47,823 bases of DNA, from the NCBI GenBank assembly GCA_021325595.1, contig JAJPGX010000030.1:1-47823 (forward strand), read 5' to 3'. Within the stretch, counting starts at the first letter, position 1; every line of letters starts with the position of its first letter. Position numbers and translations under genes: made by a program. Positions 13,818 through 45,350 of the stretch are shown one piece after another. This stretch comes from Nitrososphaerota archaeon. Its GTDB lineage: Archaea > Thermoproteota > Nitrososphaeria > Nitrososphaerales > Nitrosopumilaceae. Below the pieces are notes generated by a model. That model saw only the letters and a list, made by a program, of their open reading frames with translations, made no database searches and was not told where the DNA came from.

Positions 13818-14231
13818 CTATGATGTCAAAATCCTAAGAGAAACAATGTCTGATTCTAAAATATAGGCATTTAACTCATTGTTTGAATTAGAATAGATTA
13901 TCCATGGTACTGGATTTGTTTCCATGAATTTTTTGTCTGTTGATGAAGGATATGCGGAGGAATCTGGGTGAGAATGAAATATTGCTATAACATCAAGTGA
14001 CCTTTTTTCTGCGGTTTCATAGGCTTTTATCAATTCTTCTGGTGATATAGTGAAACTATATGACGAGTTTTCTATATTTTTTGCAGGAAATATGTCTTTG
14101 ACTATGTACTTGTTATCTAAAATTTTTCCAAATAAAATTGCACATGATTCATTTGGTACACAACTTTTTGCATGTTTTTTTAGAATCTCTATTTGGTTTT
14201 GTAAAAGTATTATCTCTTTTTGAGTGGTCAT
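13818..14231 (-). CDS. JAMM/MPN-domain metallopeptidase
   Basis: A 137-residue protein with the full JAMM zinc signature: E28 in PNESCAILFG and HSHPDSSAYPSSTD (H86, H88, S96 or S97 region, D99). Archaeal stand-alone JAMM proteins remove ubiquitin-like modifiers (SAMPs) or process sulfur-carrier proteins. The start chosen is the ATG at 14231, which overlaps the stop of the upstream cupredoxin gene as ATGA; a longer frame to 14273 would run inside that gene. The pairing with a copper protein is unexplained. Confidence 0.87.
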   Translation of the reverse strand: MTTQKEIILLQNQIEILKKHAKSCVPNESCAILFGKILDNKYIVKDIFPAKNIENSSYSFTISPEELIKAYETAEKRSLDVIAIFHSHPDSSAYPSSTDKKFMETNPVPWIIYSNSNNELNAYILESDIVSLRILTS

Positions 14232-15349
14232 CCCACAGTAACTTTTCCGGTCATCCATGGATGTACAGTGCAATAGTATGGATTAGTTCCGACTGAATCA
14301 AATTTGTACTGAAAAGTAGCTCCTGGTTTGATTAATCCGGAATCAAATGTAGTTGTGGGTCCTGAGTTTGGGTCACCACTTGTAACCGTATGTGCTACTC
14401 CATCTTTGTTTGTCCACACAACAGTAGTTCCAACTTTTACCGAGATATCTTCTGGATCAAAATACTTTTGACCGTTTGCCTGTTTTGATGCTCCCTCTGC
14501 AATTGTTACATTAGCTATTACTGGTTTGGCAGGAGATGTTACCTCTATCTTACCTGTCATCCATGGGTGGACTGTGCATAGGTAATCGTATTCTTTTACA
14601 TCAAGTTTTGATGTATCAAGTCTGTATGTTTTTCCCGAAGAAATTATGCCTGAATCAAACAAGTTTCCATCTGGAGCGCTTGTTACTGTGTGAGCTGCAT
14701 TGTCCTTATTTGTCCATTCTATGATGTCACCTTTTGGAGCAGATACGGGATCGGGCTTGAAACTTGGATTCCCTTTTACTGATGCATTAAGAAGAATATC
14801 TACTGGTACGACTGGAGCACTAGGAGCTTGTGGTGTTGGTACTTGGCTTGTTTGATTTTCTGTTTCTGTATGAAATGAAAATTGTGCTCCTGGGCCTATG
14901 AATCCAAAGGCAGTATACGACGCAATTCCCAGTCCCATAGCAGCCAGAAATATTATTGCAATTGGCTTGAAGTATTTCTGCATCTTCATTGATGCAAACG
15001 CGATGACTATGGATGGTATGACTATTACAATTAGTATTCCTGCAAATCTTGGAAGTGAAGTTACTATTGTATTCAAACTCATGGCATACGCTCCTACCGA
15101 GCCTACAATTCCAAAAATTACCAAAGTAGTAGCTTTTGCTTTTGCACTGGTTGAAATTCCTCCATTTAATATTCCAGCTGATAAAAATATCAAGCCAATA
15201 AACATCGTTAATCCAGATAAGGCCTGCATGCCAGTAAGGAAAGTATTTGCAATGCCCATGTACGACAAAATCACACCTGCAAGACCTATTGCAGTAAGGC
15301 CCATTCCTGGCATCATTAGGTCCCAGTCACTCATTTGTGGTAGTTCCAT
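14228..15349 (-). CDS. Membrane-anchored twin cupredoxin (plastocyanin-like) protein
   Basis: A 373-residue protein with about five hydrophobic helices between residues 17 and 152, a Pro/Gln/Thr-rich linker (160-183) and two tandem type-1 copper domains. Ligands in domain 1 are H220, C258, H261 and M264; in domain 2, H320, C360, H363 and M366. Both end in the identical CTVHPWMTGK. Small blue copper proteins replace cytochromes as electron carriers in ammonia-oxidising archaea, so an outward-facing electron-transfer role is likely. Near-identical ligand loops suggest internal duplication. It is translationally coupled to the JAMM gene and divergent from heme O synthase. Confidence 0.88.
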   Translation of the reverse strand: MELPQMSDWDLMMPGMGLTAIGLAGVILSYMGIANTFLTGMQALSGLTMFIGLIFLSAGILNGGISTSAKAKATTLVIFGIVGSVGAYAMSLNTIVTSLPRFAGILIVIVIPSIVIAFASMKMQKYFKPIAIIFLAAMGLGIASYTAFGFIGPGAQFSFHTETENQTSQVPTPQAPSAPVVPVDILLNASVKGNPSFKPDPVSAPKGDIIEWTNKDNAAHTVTSAPDGNLFDSGIISSGKTYRLDTSKLDVKEYDYLCTVHPWMTGKIEVTSPAKPVIANVTIAEGASKQANGQKYFDPEDISVKVGTTVVWTNKDGVAHTVTSGDPNSGPTTTFDSGLIKPGATFQYKFDSVGTNPYYCTVHPWMTGKVTVG

Positions 15350-25233: not shown

Positions 25234-26055
25234 ATGTATGATCCGAAATTTTATTTGAAACCAAAGCCAATCTCTGTTGTGAAAACCACACTGTTGCTTG
25301 TTCTGGGGCTTGTTATGTTGATTGTATCCCAGACTGCTTATGCTGATCATATTCCATCTTGGATTAAAAATAATGCAAAATGGTGGTCACAAAACCAAAT
25401 ATCAGATGATGATTTTGTTAAAGGCATACAGTTTCTGATTGATAATAATATAATCAAAATTACAGATACGCCTGTAGCATCAAATTCTGATTCCCATATT
25501 CCTTCATGGATAAAAAAAACTGCTGGCTGGTGGTCAGATGGTTCCATAGGTGATTCGGATTTTATCCAAGGTATTCAATATCTTATTCAAATTCAAGTGA
25601 TCAAGATAACGCAAGGTACATTTGCACTAACCAGCCCTGCATTTGAAAACAATGGTACTATCCCAGTTGAATACACCTGTGATGGAGATAATACATCGCC
25701 ACCACTTGTTATCTCTGGAATGCCACAAAATACAACCAGCCTTGCACTTGTAATGGACGATCCAGATGCAACACATGGAACTTTTGTGCACTGGACCATG
25801 TTCAATATCTCACCAGAAAAAACTCAGTTTACAAAAGGTGATGTTTCTTCACCACAGGGACTAAACGGTATCAATAAACAAGGATATTTTGGACCATGCC
25901 CTCCTTCTGGAAATCATCATTATTTTTTCAAATTATATGCACTTGATACCAATCTGAATTTCCCAAGTCCTCCAACTAAATCTGATTTGGAACAGGCCAT
26001 GACGGGACACATCTTGGCAAAGGCAACCTTACTTGGAAGATATTCACGAGGGTAA
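25234..26055 (+). CDS. Exported protein: two 'IPxWIKxxAxWW' modules plus PEBP domain
   Basis: A 273-residue protein. Residues 1-37 are a signal peptide with a 15-residue hydrophobic core and a probable cut after AYA (35-37). Two homologous modules follow at 40-76 and 89-126, each with IPSWIK, a WW pair and a YLI/FLI helix. Residues 131-272 are a YbhB/YbcL-type phosphatidylethanolamine-binding domain: DPDAT (176-180), HWTMFNI (186-192) and GYFGPCPPSGNHHYFFKLYA. The modules are common in exported thaumarchaeal proteins and may bind the S-layer or cell surface. Joining them to PEBP places this ligand-binding fold outside the cell. Confidence 0.82.
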   Translation: MYDPKFYLKPKPISVVKTTLLLVLGLVMLIVSQTAYADHIPSWIKNNAKWWSQNQISDDDFVKGIQFLIDNNIIKITDTPVASNSDSHIPSWIKKTAGWWSDGSIGDSDFIQGIQYLIQIQVIKITQGTFALTSPAFENNGTIPVEYTCDGDNTSPPLVISGMPQNTTSLALVMDDPDATHGTFVHWTMFNISPEKTQFTKGDVSSPQGLNGINKQGYFGPCPPSGNHHYFFKLYALDTNLNFPSPPTKSDLEQAMTGHILAKATLLGRYSRG

Positions 26056-30227: not shown

Positions 30228-31163
30228 TTGTTGCAAAACAAGAGTGTCATGATCGCACTGGGCATAATTGCCGTACCTATTCTTTATGCACTTGTAGCAT
30301 ATCCTGATACATTTAGCTTAGGATGGAATCAAGGAAGGGGAGGATTTCTTTTTGCATTAGCATTTATTGGTGCAGAAATTATGGGAATACAATTTAGAAT
30401 ACCAAAGAAAAAATTACTTGCAGTGATTCCACTTGCTGCTGCAGTAATTGTGTATTTGACAACTCTTCAATTTGGTTTGAGGGACTATATAGTGTCTATC
30501 GCACCACAATATCATATCCAAGTAGTATACTCATGGGAATGGATGTGGGATTTTGTAGTTATTGCAGCCTTCTTTATAGCAAGTTTGACCATATTTTTTG
30601 GTAAAAAATGGATAAGAATATCACCAGCTGGTCCAATTTATGCTGCAGGTACTGCAATAATACTGTCACTTGACGCATTTTTCCCATATGACTCACTTGG
30701 ACCTTTGCAATACGTAGTTCCGTATCTAGTAAAAATAGACGTCTTTTTGATTAATCTCTTCAATCTTGGAATAGCAAATGGTCATGATAACATTATGTTT
30801 CTAAAAGGTGATCATGGACCATTTGCATTGCAAGTCTTTTGGCCATCTGCTGGAGTGCATAGTATGATCATCTATTCGCTTGTTATGATGGCATTTCTAT
30901 TGAAGATGAATATTCCACGAAACAGAAAAGCAGCATATTTTGCAATGGGTGTGATTGGTACCATAGGTGTTAATATTATCAGGATACTCTCACTTTCTAT
31001 TTTTGTTCTCAAAGTTTCAACTAATGTTAACGAATTCGAGTCTTTCCATGGTATTGCAGGTGAGATAATGTTTCTACCATGGCTCTTTGCGTTCCTACTT
31101 ATAGTAACCTTTGTAGAATCAAGACGATTGAAAAAACAAGGTGAACAAACACGAATAGCCTAA
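30228..31163 (+). CDS. Archaeosortase/exosortase-family membrane protein without cysteine
   Basis: A 311-residue protein with about eight hydrophobic helices. The sortase-like active-site blocks can be aligned: WPSAGVHS (205-212), where exosortases have Cys-Ser/Thr-Gly; NIIRIL with R252; and SFHGIAGE with H274. The nucleophile position is Ser207, and the whole protein contains no cysteine. The family cleaves C-terminal sorting tags (in thaumarchaea probably PEFG-CTERM) of exported proteins and may transfer them to lipid. The start is TTG (30228 or 30231) with a TATA-like TTATTTAAC about 24 bases upstream. No tagged substrate is in the window. Confidence 0.8.
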   Translation: MLQNKSVMIALGIIAVPILYALVAYPDTFSLGWNQGRGGFLFALAFIGAEIMGIQFRIPKKKLLAVIPLAAAVIVYLTTLQFGLRDYIVSIAPQYHIQVVYSWEWMWDFVVIAAFFIASLTIFFGKKWIRISPAGPIYAAGTAIILSLDAFFPYDSLGPLQYVVPYLVKIDVFLINLFNLGIANGHDNIMFLKGDHGPFALQVFWPSAGVHSMIIYSLVMMAFLLKMNIPRNRKAAYFAMGVIGTIGVNIIRILSLSIFVLKVSTNVNEFESFHGIAGEIMFLPWLFAFLLIVTFVESRRLKKQGEQTRIA

Positions 31164-41900: not shown

Positions 41901-42425
41901 CTTGAAGCTGAACGAAACTCCATTGTAAAATTCATCGAGGAAATTGATAAGGACAAACGTCAAACATTCTTGGAATCATACGATAAAGTAGACAAGGACA
42001 TACGAGAAATATTCAACAAGATGACTGGTGGAAATGCTTGGCTTGAAATACAAAACGAGGATGATCTATTCTCATCTGGAATTTCGTATCTAGTACAATT
42101 TCCAAACAAACCAAAAAGAGAATCTACATCAATCAGTGGTGGAGAAAAGACACTAGCGGCAATCACTTTCTTGCTTGCATTACAGAAATTAAAACCATCG
42201 CCATTTTATTTGCTTGATGAAGTTGATGCTCATCTTGATGCCTTGAACACAGAACGACTTTCACGAATATTGGAAGATAGAGCAGCTGGAAGTCAAATAA
42301 TCATGGTTTCGTTGAAAGATTCAGTAGTACAAAAAGCAAAACTGATTTACGGTGTATTTCCAAGAAATGGTGTATCGCATGTTGTGTCCCACAAAATATC
42401 TGGCACACCACAACTGGCAAATTAG
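38901..42425 (+). CDS. smc: SMC chromosome-segregation/condensation ATPase
   Basis: A 1174-residue SMC. It has an N-terminal lobe with GSNGSGKS (33-40) and two long coiled coils rich in Lys/Glu/Leu flanking a hinge near 510-650 (RLGIQGLVYEILSW to KVSHLTKIIL). The C-terminal lobe has SISGGEK (about 1079) and the Walker B FYLLDEVDAHLD (about 1102-1113). SMC rings entrap and extrude DNA with kleisin partners, none of which are next to it. The start is TTG, giving MVHIRKLEIFGFKSFGYKNT, exactly where the family begins. The stop overlaps the end of the convergent ABC ATPase gene. Confidence 0.96.
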   Translation: MVHIRKLEIFGFKSFGYKNTIVNLETGLVAISGSNGSGKSNILDAISFALGENSPKVMRVDKLRSLLHDVDNARHGAKIARVSCHFDNTDRKIPVDSNVVTITREMDETGENIYYLNQKKVLRNHILDLLEVANCGIHKLNIVQQGTITRISEFNAEERRKIIEDIIGLAYFDEKKTEALKQLDEADRRLEIALARMDEIKKRIDELEEERNNQLRYDFLDRELRRLYAIQASNKLRDIEETKISKEKSLHAIQSESKKAEEQRTLLREEIKKLEDEKQKFMDEVNAYNQAKAAIDSELASAMHQSEEANSKLATNSRRISQIDLRLPEIQTELASLHERRSLLESQITELKNLINNINESKKNTNTELATVDSEINQVMRQQSQIATNKLKVDEKIRNLTNLLNETKLSLSKLEQEKTDIQNKIEQNTSKIKSLLEEKQRLLMLEQKLRAVRAVHEVAMNDIKTRLGNLREKRAKIEHDIDETTLIFEKASKAAAQYEAKIKVVKEVMHEDYSIAKLKEDSKRLGIQGLVYEILSWDKQYERPILAVGSDWLKGLVVNDFATLLGLAEFAQQKKLPKIRIIPLDAISNSKVSIKKEQGVLGTLSEFVKCDQRFDALKNFIFGSIVLVDSKEKAYELSKQGYRAVTVDGQFFEADANAVVVDVNSKVSHLTKIILLSTSVDGLVESLELLKRFIQNKKNQIKKLERITKSLENRYISSETGLANVDLGLSDIKTKLKALGLSDDQLSSRIVQLKKREESITVALSKMESYVASLEERVSLTKENYAEEEQARIASVLSSLNEKRSTLLSTQTSISTQFRDLTTNLTELINQESSLKTNMRLLSQEQSSLNHEKHELEVQSRSLSKEKETLDSSLVALREKEQQLISTSGTSVTTLKEYDSKLKNLYESERTFSKEINGIERQSDSISRDIKDLAENEDRIRKTLHSYGYDSLLESFDVDHLLLELESEKKKLTGSLNTKSPETYVEISNGYRSMSSRKNELEAERNSIVKFIEEIDKDKRQTFLESYDKVDKDIREIFNKMTGGNAWLEIQNEDDLFSSGISYLVQFPNKPKRESTSISGGEKTLAAITFLLALQKLKPSPFYLLDEVDAHLDALNTERLSRILEDRAAGSQIIMVSLKDSVVQKAKLIYGVFPRNGVSHVVSHKISGTPQLAN

Positions 42426-43387
42426 TTTATTTTTATATAACAAGCAGAAAATCTGTTTTCTTGAACTTTCTCAAGTTCAGGTTCTTGTTTACATTTGTCA
42501 ATGGCATAGGGACATTTTGCCCTGAACCTACATCCCTGGTAGGTGTTTTCATTGGTAGATTCGTTTATGCGGATTTGTTTATTCTTATGAAGATTGTCTG
42601 GGTCTGGTTCTGAAACTGAATCTAAAAGAGCTTGTGTGTATGGATGCATGGGCTTTGATAGTACGTCATTAATTGGTCCCACCTCTACAATTTTTCCAAG
42701 ATACATTATTGCAATTTGATGCCCAACATATTTTGAAGTTGTAAGATCATGAGTAATGTAAAGAAATGAAATACCATGTTTTTCTTGTAATTCTTTCATC
42801 AAATCTAACACTCCAACTCTAACTGAAACATCAAGCATGGAGACAGGTTCATCTGCTATGATTAATTTTGGCTTGGTTACAATAGCGCGAGCGAGTGCAA
42901 CTCTTTGCCTTTGGCCGCCTGATAACATATGTGGGTGTTTTTTTACAATTTCCTCTATTGGTTCTAGTTTTACTTCTGCTAACGCTTGACGCACTATCTT
43001 ATTTTGTTCTAATTTGTTACCAATGTGATGAATCTCAAGTGGCTCCTTGATTATGTCAAGAACTGTCATTCTTGGATTAATTGATGCATAAGGATCCTGA
43101 TGCACCATTTGACACTCCATTCTTATTTTTTTGAGATGCTCACTTTTATCTGAGATTTTTATTCCGTCAAAAACTATCTTGCCTGCATCTTGTTCTAATG
43201 CTCCTAGTATCAGTCTGGCTATTGTCGTTTTTCCTGACCCTGATTCTCCGGCTAGTACCAACGTCTCTCCTTTTTTGATGGAAAGTGTAACGTCATCTAC
43301 TGCTCTTACCACTTCCTTCCTGCCAAAGAGGCCTTTTTTTACAAAATACTTCTTTAATCCCGTAATGGATAGGATCTCTTCCATCAT
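42422..43387 (-). CDS. Peptide/nickel-type ABC transporter ATPase (DppF/OppF-like)
   Basis: A 321-residue ATPase with GESGSGKTT (Walker A), LSGGQRQR (signature), IIADEPVSMLD (Walker B) and a C-terminal oligopeptide-transporter domain with cysteines in GCRFRAKCPYAIDKC and FSACYIK. The ATG at 43387 is preferred to an upstream TTG at 43414 because the latter lies inside a TATA-like GATATATTTGG. It would pair with the similar ATPase at 44415-45350, yet no permease or binding-protein gene is present between 38.9 kb and 47.8 kb. Substrate unknown (peptides or metals likely). Confidence 0.87.
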   Translation of the reverse strand: MMEEILSITGLKKYFVKKGLFGRKEVVRAVDDVTLSIKKGETLVLAGESGSGKTTIARLILGALEQDAGKIVFDGIKISDKSEHLKKIRMECQMVHQDPYASINPRMTVLDIIKEPLEIHHIGNKLEQNKIVRQALAEVKLEPIEEIVKKHPHMLSGGQRQRVALARAIVTKPKLIIADEPVSMLDVSVRVGVLDLMKELQEKHGISFLYITHDLTTSKYVGHQIAIMYLGKIVEVGPINDVLSKPMHPYTQALLDSVSEPDPDNLHKNKQIRINESTNENTYQGCRFRAKCPYAIDKCKQEPELEKVQENRFSACYIKIN

Positions 43388-43448
43388 TGCTTCATCGGAT
43401 CCCAAATATATCAAGCGATCACTGGGTCAAAATCTTACCATCGCAAAG

Positions 43449-43456
43449 TTTTAAAA
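43449..43456 (+). promoter_or_regulatory. TATA-like box of the exported repeat-protein gene
   Basis: TTTTAAAA is centred about 27 bases before the GTG at 43480, supporting a leaderless transcript. It shares a 92-base intergenic region with the divergent ABC ATPase promoter. Confidence 0.6.
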
Positions 43457-43479
43457 GCCATACTATATGAGAGAGAATC

Positions 43480-44409
43480 GTGAATTCAAAGGTATATGCT
43501 ATCCTGATGATTGCAGGTTTATTGGTTAGCACAAGTACAGTGTACCTGAATAGCGTGTTTGCAGATGATAATTGGTCTGATATTGTAAAAAGACAGCAAG
43601 CAGCAGAGGAGAAAGCAATGTTGACCTATGCATCAAAATACCAATTTACAGACATGGATCAAACCAAGAGAAACTGGTCTGGTCTTACCAGTGTTACAAC
43701 TGATGAAACTAGCAGAGGCAGACCAATTGAACAGCAAGCCCAAGTATCATTAGAAAATGCTTTGGCTCAGTTCGATCAAATTCATGTTAAACAATTAATG
43801 GACTTGCAGAGAAATTACACCGGTCTTACAAATACTCCAACCGATGAACAGGGACGAAGCAGAACTGTAATGATTGCTGACGCCCAAAACTCATCTGATG
43901 TTCAAGCTAATGCTATAATAAGCCAATTAAGAGGAATCCAATCTCAAACCTATGTTGGTTTTGAAACAGGACCTACTACAGAAGGATATGGTTATGATAG
44001 ACAAGCTGCAATAGAGCAAAAATGGAATACGGCAGAATCTCAAGCAGCTGACTTGGTGAATCAATTGGCAAAGATTGATGGTGTGTACATCGATTTATCA
44101 CAATACAAGGACACTACATCAAAATTTGTGTATAACTCTGGTTATACTACAAACGAGAATACGGTTGGTAGACAATTGAGTCCAGCTCAACAATATGCTC
44201 TAGAAAAAGCAATAGTTATTTTCGAACAGATTCACCAAAAACATTTGGCTGAACTAAAATCCAGTTACTATGGTCTGTGGAATACTCAAACCACTGACGA
44301 GACCGGCAGAGATAGAAACGCAATGCTGCAACAAGCACAAGCATCATCTATCGCAAATGCAATGCGAGTCTATGATGCCTATTATGGCGGTACTGGTGTA
44401 AATCCATAA
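43480..44409 (+). CDS. Exported protein with five ~24-residue repeats
   Basis: A 309-residue protein starting at GTG. Residues 1-28 are a signal peptide (hydrophobic 6-24, probable cut after VFA). The mature part has five copies of a motif that reads YxGLxxxxTTDExGRxR followed by Ala/Gln: at 65-88, 112-136, 157-180, 215-238 and 262-287. Stretches such as AQFDQIHVKQLMDLQ and VIFEQIHQKHLAELK form helices between copies 1-2 and 4-5. There is no sorting tag or transmembrane anchor at the end (GGTGVNP). I know no family. It lies between two ABC ATPase genes read on the other strand. Confidence 0.7.
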   Translation: MNSKVYAILMIAGLLVSTSTVYLNSVFADDNWSDIVKRQQAAEEKAMLTYASKYQFTDMDQTKRNWSGLTSVTTDETSRGRPIEQQAQVSLENALAQFDQIHVKQLMDLQRNYTGLTNTPTDEQGRSRTVMIADAQNSSDVQANAIISQLRGIQSQTYVGFETGPTTEGYGYDRQAAIEQKWNTAESQAADLVNQLAKIDGVYIDLSQYKDTTSKFVYNSGYTTNENTVGRQLSPAQQYALEKAIVIFEQIHQKHLAELKSSYYGLWNTQTTDETGRDRNAMLQQAQASSIANAMRVYDAYYGGTGVNP

Positions 44410-44414
44410 ACTAG

Positions 44415-45350
44415 TCATTCATACAGCCAGCACATTACATAGCCTGACTTTGTATTTATCTTGGCTGGATTTTTTCTACATTTGTCCATTGCATGAGGAC
44501 ACCTATCATAGAACTTGCAGCCTTCTGGAAGATTGATCATGCTTGGAGGAGCTCCTTCAAGAACTGTTATTTTGGATTCTGTTTTCAACTTGGGTGTCGA
44601 ATTCAATAACGCAACTGTATAGGGATGCATTGGGTTCCTGTAAATCTCATCTAAATTCCCAAATTCTACAATTTCGCCTGCATACATTATGGCTATTTTT
44701 TCTGCAATTTCGGATATGATGCCTATGTCATGTGAGATGAGTACTATTGAAAGGCCTTGTTTTTTTAGTTCTTTTAATACGTTAATGATCTGTGCTTGCA
44801 CTAGGACATCTAAAGCAGTAGTTGGCTCATCTGCAATCACAATCTTTGGTCTTAATAGCAAAGCCATGGCTATTACTACACGTTGCTTCATTCCTCCGCT
44901 AAGTTCGTGTGGAAATCTATCTAGGACTGATTCTGAAAGGCCTACTTGTAATATTGTGTGTTCGATTATTTGATGAGCATCACCTTGGAATTTGTGCTTT
45001 TTTAGAATCTCTACAAATTGTTGCCTTATGGTAAATACAGGGTCCAATGAATTCATGGCACCTTGAAAAATCATTGAAATTTCTTTCCATCTTATATTTT
45101 CTGTAAAGTCCTTTGGTGACATGTCTAGGATTGATTTGCCATCGAAAATTATTTTTCCAGATATGCTGGTTTTCTCTTGATGGGCCCTGATGATTGATAA
45201 ACCAAGAGTGCTTTTCCCACATCCACTTTCACCGACTATCCCTAGTGACTCGTTTTTAGGTAAAACAAATGAGACATTATTTACTGCATGAACACTAGTC
45301 CCTTGGCTGGCATATTTTACTTCTAATCCTTCGATCACAAGTGTGTCCAT
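44415..45350 (-). CDS. Peptide/nickel-type ABC transporter ATPase (DppD/OppD-like)
   Basis: A 311-residue ATPase with GESGCGKST (Walker A), MIFQGAMNSLDPVFTI (Q-loop), LSGGMKQRV (signature), IVIADEPTTALD (Walker B) and a C-terminal domain with GCKFYDRCPHAMDKC and a late YVMCW, the pattern of the oligopeptide-transport family. It is the natural partner of the ATPase at 42422-43387, from which it is separated by the opposite-strand repeat-protein gene. Permeases must be encoded elsewhere. Confidence 0.88.
   Translation of the reverse strand: MDTLVIEGLEVKYASQGTSVHAVNNVSFVLPKNESLGIVGESGCGKSTLGLSIIRAHQEKTSISGKIIFDGKSILDMSPKDFTENIRWKEISMIFQGAMNSLDPVFTIRQQFVEILKKHKFQGDAHQIIEHTILQVGLSESVLDRFPHELSGGMKQRVVIAMALLLRPKIVIADEPTTALDVLVQAQIINVLKELKKQGLSIVLISHDIGIISEIAEKIAIMYAGEIVEFGNLDEIYRNPMHPYTVALLNSTPKLKTESKITVLEGAPPSMINLPEGCKFYDRCPHAMDKCRKNPAKINTKSGYVMCWLYE

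Follow-up and report, generated by a model that had tools for sequence, protein, structure and literature searches.

The window analysed here, a contig stretch of 47,823 nucleotides from an ammonia-oxidising archaeon, contains a gene whose product an earlier note had described as an exported protein built from five degenerate copies of an unfamiliar motif, which raises the question of what this repeat array is and what its conserved residues are for. The open reading frame occupies positions 43480-44409 of the forward strand including the stop codon (coding to 44406), with a GTG start and 309 residues, just as the note had it. Its hydrophobic N-terminus, kept in the orthologs, reads as a signal peptide (residues 1-28, ...VFA/DD; 43480-43563, forward strand) with a probable cleavage site after VFA and before DD that was placed by eye; the protein is predicted to be exported, and its mature form is about 31 kDa. 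The protein contains no Cys, is rich in Gln, Ala, Thr and Ser (pI 4.9) and ends in YDAYY, with no C-terminal membrane anchor. Orthologs were found in 32 of the 37 genomes of the window's genus (g1), normally as one gene per genome, and one further genus of the same family (g5) carries the gene, the proteins of the two genera being about 30% identical.

Five contiguous copies of one repeat unit

The reading frame carries five contiguous copies of one undescribed unit of about 47 residues, and the five segments singled out earlier thus proved to be real repeats. Self-comparison of the protein gave ungapped 24-residue matches with BLOSUM62 scores of 66 (offset 150), 54 (offset 47) and 52; none of 200 shuffles exceeded 45. 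With a unit HMM, almost every ortholog showed five copies in a row, and when one copy at a time was left out of the model, the omitted copy was recovered in 32 of 32 orthologs in every case; the scores of the window copies c1-c5 were 44.4, 37.6, 24.9, 32.8 and 45.2 bits, respectively, compared with 9.5 bits for the best of 1000 shuffled proteins. The segments are also equivalent to one another, since each precedes one predicted helix and the leave-one-out models find all five. The array covers residues ~66-303 with a period of ~47; the 45-58 residues that had been taken to separate the segments correspond to this period and not to a gap.

Each unit comprises a loop of about 15 residues, Y/W-x-G-L-x-x-T-x-T-[DN]-x-x-x-x-x-R, followed by a single predicted helix of about 30 residues. 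The array is preceded by an N-terminal helix 0 (residues 29-65; 43564-43674, forward strand, like all the segments that follow), which has no recognisable motif loop, is missed by the repeat HMM and is predicted as helix at residues 31-53 with low confidence. Repeat 1 (type A, residues 66-112; 43675-43815) combines a WSGLTSVTTDETSRGR loop with a helix ending in IHVKQL, repeat 2 (type B, residues 113-157; 43816-43950) and repeat 5 (residues 263-306; 44266-44397) are recovered by the repeat HMM, repeat 3 (type C, residues 158-204; 43951-44091) has the weakest motif with T167 and R174 invariant, and the helix of repeat 4 (type A, residues 216-262; 44125-44265) contains IHQKHL. Helices with IHxKxL had been reported between most of the segments; the sequence is indeed present as a helix end, in genus g1 at copies 1 and 4 only. 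An 11-residue insertion (residues 205-215; 44092-44124) gives a period of 57/58 where it is present; roughly half the orthologs lack it and have 45 instead. Measured between motifs, the spacing runs 47-46-57-48 in the window protein, and orthologs lacking the insertion typically show 48-45-45-48.

In a tree of the units, copies 1 and 4 grouped together (97/94), as did copies 2, 3 and 5 (97/94), the units being short and single branches uncertain. The order of the array is A-B-C-A-B in genus g1, and copies 4 and 5 are C-like in g5. Internal duplication has rebuilt the array, the copy number staying constant at five.

Motif conservation and the predicted fold

The residues of the motif were counted in aligned columns across 32 orthologous sequences. 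The motif Thr is present in every copy of 32 of 32 sequences, Arg at T+7 is present in 30, 32, 32, 29 and 32 of 32 (copies 1-5), and aromatic-x-Gly-Leu is fixed in most copies. The TTDE-GR string had been called invariant; only its Thr is fixed everywhere, the Arg being kept in 29-32 of 32. The acidic positions are variable, Asn standing at T+1 in 27 of 32 orthologs (copy 4) and in 10 of 32 (copy 5); T+2 carries Thr in 17 of 32 (copy 2) and one of Ser, Thr and Gly in 20 of 32 (copy 3).

These counts bear directly on the proposal, made on the strength of the supposed invariance, that every copy holds a site for a ligand or metal. The repeated polar, partly acidic T-D-E-x-G-R-x-R motif would suit five metal- or ligand-binding modules, one in each repeat, and the T-D-E of copy 1 is nearly fixed across orthologs. 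Copies 2-5, however, lose the acidic residues, which drift to Asn, Ser, Thr or Gly, and keep Thr and Arg alone; EF-hand-like and RTX-like repeats have coordinating residues in each copy, which copies 2-5 here do not retain. The protein lacks Cys, the motif lacks His, and none of the metal-repeat families of Pfam, EF-hand-like ones included, matched. A site in each copy is therefore not supported and was rejected on the column counts over 32 sequences, variation that a loop staple could accommodate and a coordination site in every copy could not, and we regard the five-module explanation as distinctly improbable. Because Thr, Arg and aromatic-x-Gly-Leu are the fixed elements, a structural loop fits better than a coordination site.

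Structure prediction, which the earlier note had recommended, was carried out with AlphaFold2 in two runs on two orthologs, using an input of three sequences only (pLDDT 44 and 46; pTM 0.40-0.42). The two low-confidence models agree on six helices, the first ahead of copy 1 and one more behind each motif. The contiguous and equivalent units would suit the helical tandem-repeat class, with which the helix prediction agrees at low confidence, and the fold may be helical.

Our preferred reading, which we hold with about even confidence, is that the protein is exported and serves the cell envelope as a helical tandem-repeat scaffold, with the Thr/Arg loop as one of its structural elements. The mature protein would be all-helical, with a leading helix and then five loop-and-helix units; the Thr/Arg pair (T-x6-R in the window protein) together with aromatic-x-Gly-Leu would most likely staple the loop, setting each helix against the next. 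The protein would most likely work on the outer side of the membrane, either at the S-layer or in the pseudoperiplasm, and could provide there a rod- or bundle-like scaffold or binding surface that is peculiar to this lineage of archaea. The remodelling of the array between g1 and g5 at a constant five copies is expected for such a scaffold, because its overall shape and not one catalytic copy would matter. Against the scaffold stand the low confidence of the models, the half-conserved acidic residues, with T-D-E nearly fixed in copy 1, which would allow a site in certain copies, and the lack of a conserved domain that hints at a partner.

The low AlphaFold2 confidence and a composition rich in Gln, Thr, Ser and Asn would also be compatible with a protein that is largely disordered, or helical only with a partner, with the motif as a linear motif that binds a partner in the envelope. 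However, the three-sequence folding input alone may explain the low confidence, the aromatic-G-L and the helix core positions (Leu, Ala, Ile, Phe) are conserved, and the periods are constant (48-45-45/57-48); we consider a disordered protein unlikely. Extending the scaffold reading to a new helical repeat fold, a one-helix unit with a Thr/Arg (T-x6-R) staple forming a dedicated structure in the envelope of acid-soil ammonia oxidisers and perhaps aiding their acid tolerance, is a step that we view as doubtful.

Locus, distribution and inheritance

The repeat gene lies between two ATPase genes of a peptide ABC transporter, namely its divergent neighbour oppF (oppF-like; 42422-43414, reverse strand), the same in all loci compared, and its convergent neighbour oppD (oppD-like; 44415-45350, reverse strand), with 5 bp between the stop codons. 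The gene order SMC, oppF, repeat gene, oppD was found in all loci compared of both genera. In three other genera, oppF-SMC and oppD are apart and neither has a repeat gene beside it, and the repeat gene therefore sits at a rearrangement junction. The flanking of the gene by oppD and oppF (window 42422-45350) in g1 and g5, and their wide separation in other genera of the family (L107-L112), point to a lineage-specific rearrangement.

This setting invites the idea that the protein is an extracytoplasmic accessory of the flanking Opp/Dpp transporter, a chaperone or peptide collector, since the gene stays between oppF and oppD in every locus compared even though the protein has diverged to the extent given above between the two genera. 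The gene is, however, on the strand opposite both ATPase genes and therefore outside their operon. Furthermore, an SBP_bac_5 substrate-binding protein is encoded elsewhere in the genomes, also in related genera without the repeat gene; the window genome's own SBP_bac_5 gene lies on another contig, and the repeat protein has no such domain (no PF00496 match in the Pfam search). Finally, related genera that lack the repeat gene have oppF-SMC and oppD-47176-type gene as two separate pairs, and the present arrangement can therefore reflect one rearrangement. A transporter accessory seems quite unlikely on these grounds.

Upstream of the gene, a BRE/TATA-like element, CGCAAAGTTTTAAA (43442-43455, forward strand), precedes the GTG by ~26 nt. 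It is near-identical and at the same distance from the GTG in 17 of the 17 orthologs compared, from two genera, and the string occurs once in the whole window; it probably acts as the promoter, and its distance from the GTG suggests a leaderless transcript. A TCGC sequence (window 43418-43446) occurs just upstream of the TATA boxes of both oppF and the repeat gene, which point apart, and recurs in orthologs; co-regulation of the two genes is not claimed, because, within the window, the upstream TCGC is no rarer than expected by chance.

Other genes of the window were noted in passing. A multi-membrane-helix protein that is archaeosortase/exosortase-like in appearance is encoded at 30228-31163 (forward strand), with a small gene next to it. 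The product of 25234-26055 (forward strand) appears to be exported and has two copies of a (H)IPSWIK(N/K)xAxWW...DxDFxxGIQ(F/Y)LI motif followed by a YbhB/PEBP-like domain. By eye, two plastocyanin-like (blue copper) domains can be recognised in the membrane protein encoded at 14228-15349 (reverse strand).

Archaeal AmoA was found with PF12942 in the genomes tested, where PF02461, the wrong family for archaea, had no match; the window's genus is probably Nitrosotalea. The search of archaeal genomes with a repeat profile that the earlier note had called for returned matches confined to g1 and g5, and neither whole-protein nor unit profiles found another homolog in 398 genomes sampled across the phylum. 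Four of the five g1 genomes without the gene are incomplete (54-79%), and in genome G033 the gene has probably not been lost, as the oppF of this genome is found at the edge of a contig. Close ortholog pairs have dN/dS values of 0.08-0.23, and the gene is under purifying selection and vertically inherited with fixed synteny. That synteny speaks against derivation from a virus or plasmid, which a taxonomically restricted orphan at a point of genome rearrangement might otherwise call to mind; viral, phage, plasmid and IMG/VR collections gave no match and PHROG matches were marginal (E 0.001 over 24 residues), and we find such an origin scarcely credible.

Comparison with known families

Family membership was taken to require a profile hit that passes the curated cut-off or reaches E<1e-3 across a domain. 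Pfam, NCBIfam and PHROG yielded nothing above cut-off, the best PHROG match being the one just cited. PDB sequences (phmmer and profile) gave no significant domain match, consistent with the view that this putatively exported protein stands outside known families. A Foldseek search of PDB folds with a low-confidence model gave no match at E<=0.001 and was given no weight. Two database matches were set aside, namely one in Prevotellaceae (L035; 30 residues, E 6e-5 relative to the candidates only), treated as chance, and one in genome G610 (L117), where the likeness is in the signal peptide and low complexity and the motif is absent.

Taken together, the repeat family is undescribed and marks one ammonia-oxidising archaeal lineage, with one locus and one putative promoter in essentially every member. 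A lineage-restricted core gene for a probably exported protein is a concrete candidate for what sets the envelope of these archaea apart, and the protein is small enough for expression and structure solution.

The closest likeness is a paralog in one genome of the same genus (G031; L044:1459-1959, reverse strand, 166 residues), which likewise has a putative signal peptide and carries the repeat unit in two degenerate copies (E 1e-5 with the family profile; two repeat matches, 4e-6 and 1.5e-4). It differs in having two copies only, in its unrelated surroundings (L093) and in its occurrence in a single genome. Designed pentatricopeptide repeats (6een) have one helix segment with weak profile resemblance to the protein; the pentatricopeptide repeat is a 35-residue, two-helix, RNA-binding unit, unlike the unit described here, and kinship was rejected as chance or compositional, all domain i-Evalues being >500. 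In distribution, the gene resembles the Nitrosotalea-specific core families, which are genus-restricted and have no homology elsewhere; 103 Nitrosotalea-specific families have been described, 38 of them with little or no homology and 62 confirmed by proteomics (Herbold et al. 2017, PMC5767755). The repeat gene differs from these in being found in a neighbouring genus as well, and it may nevertheless be among them.
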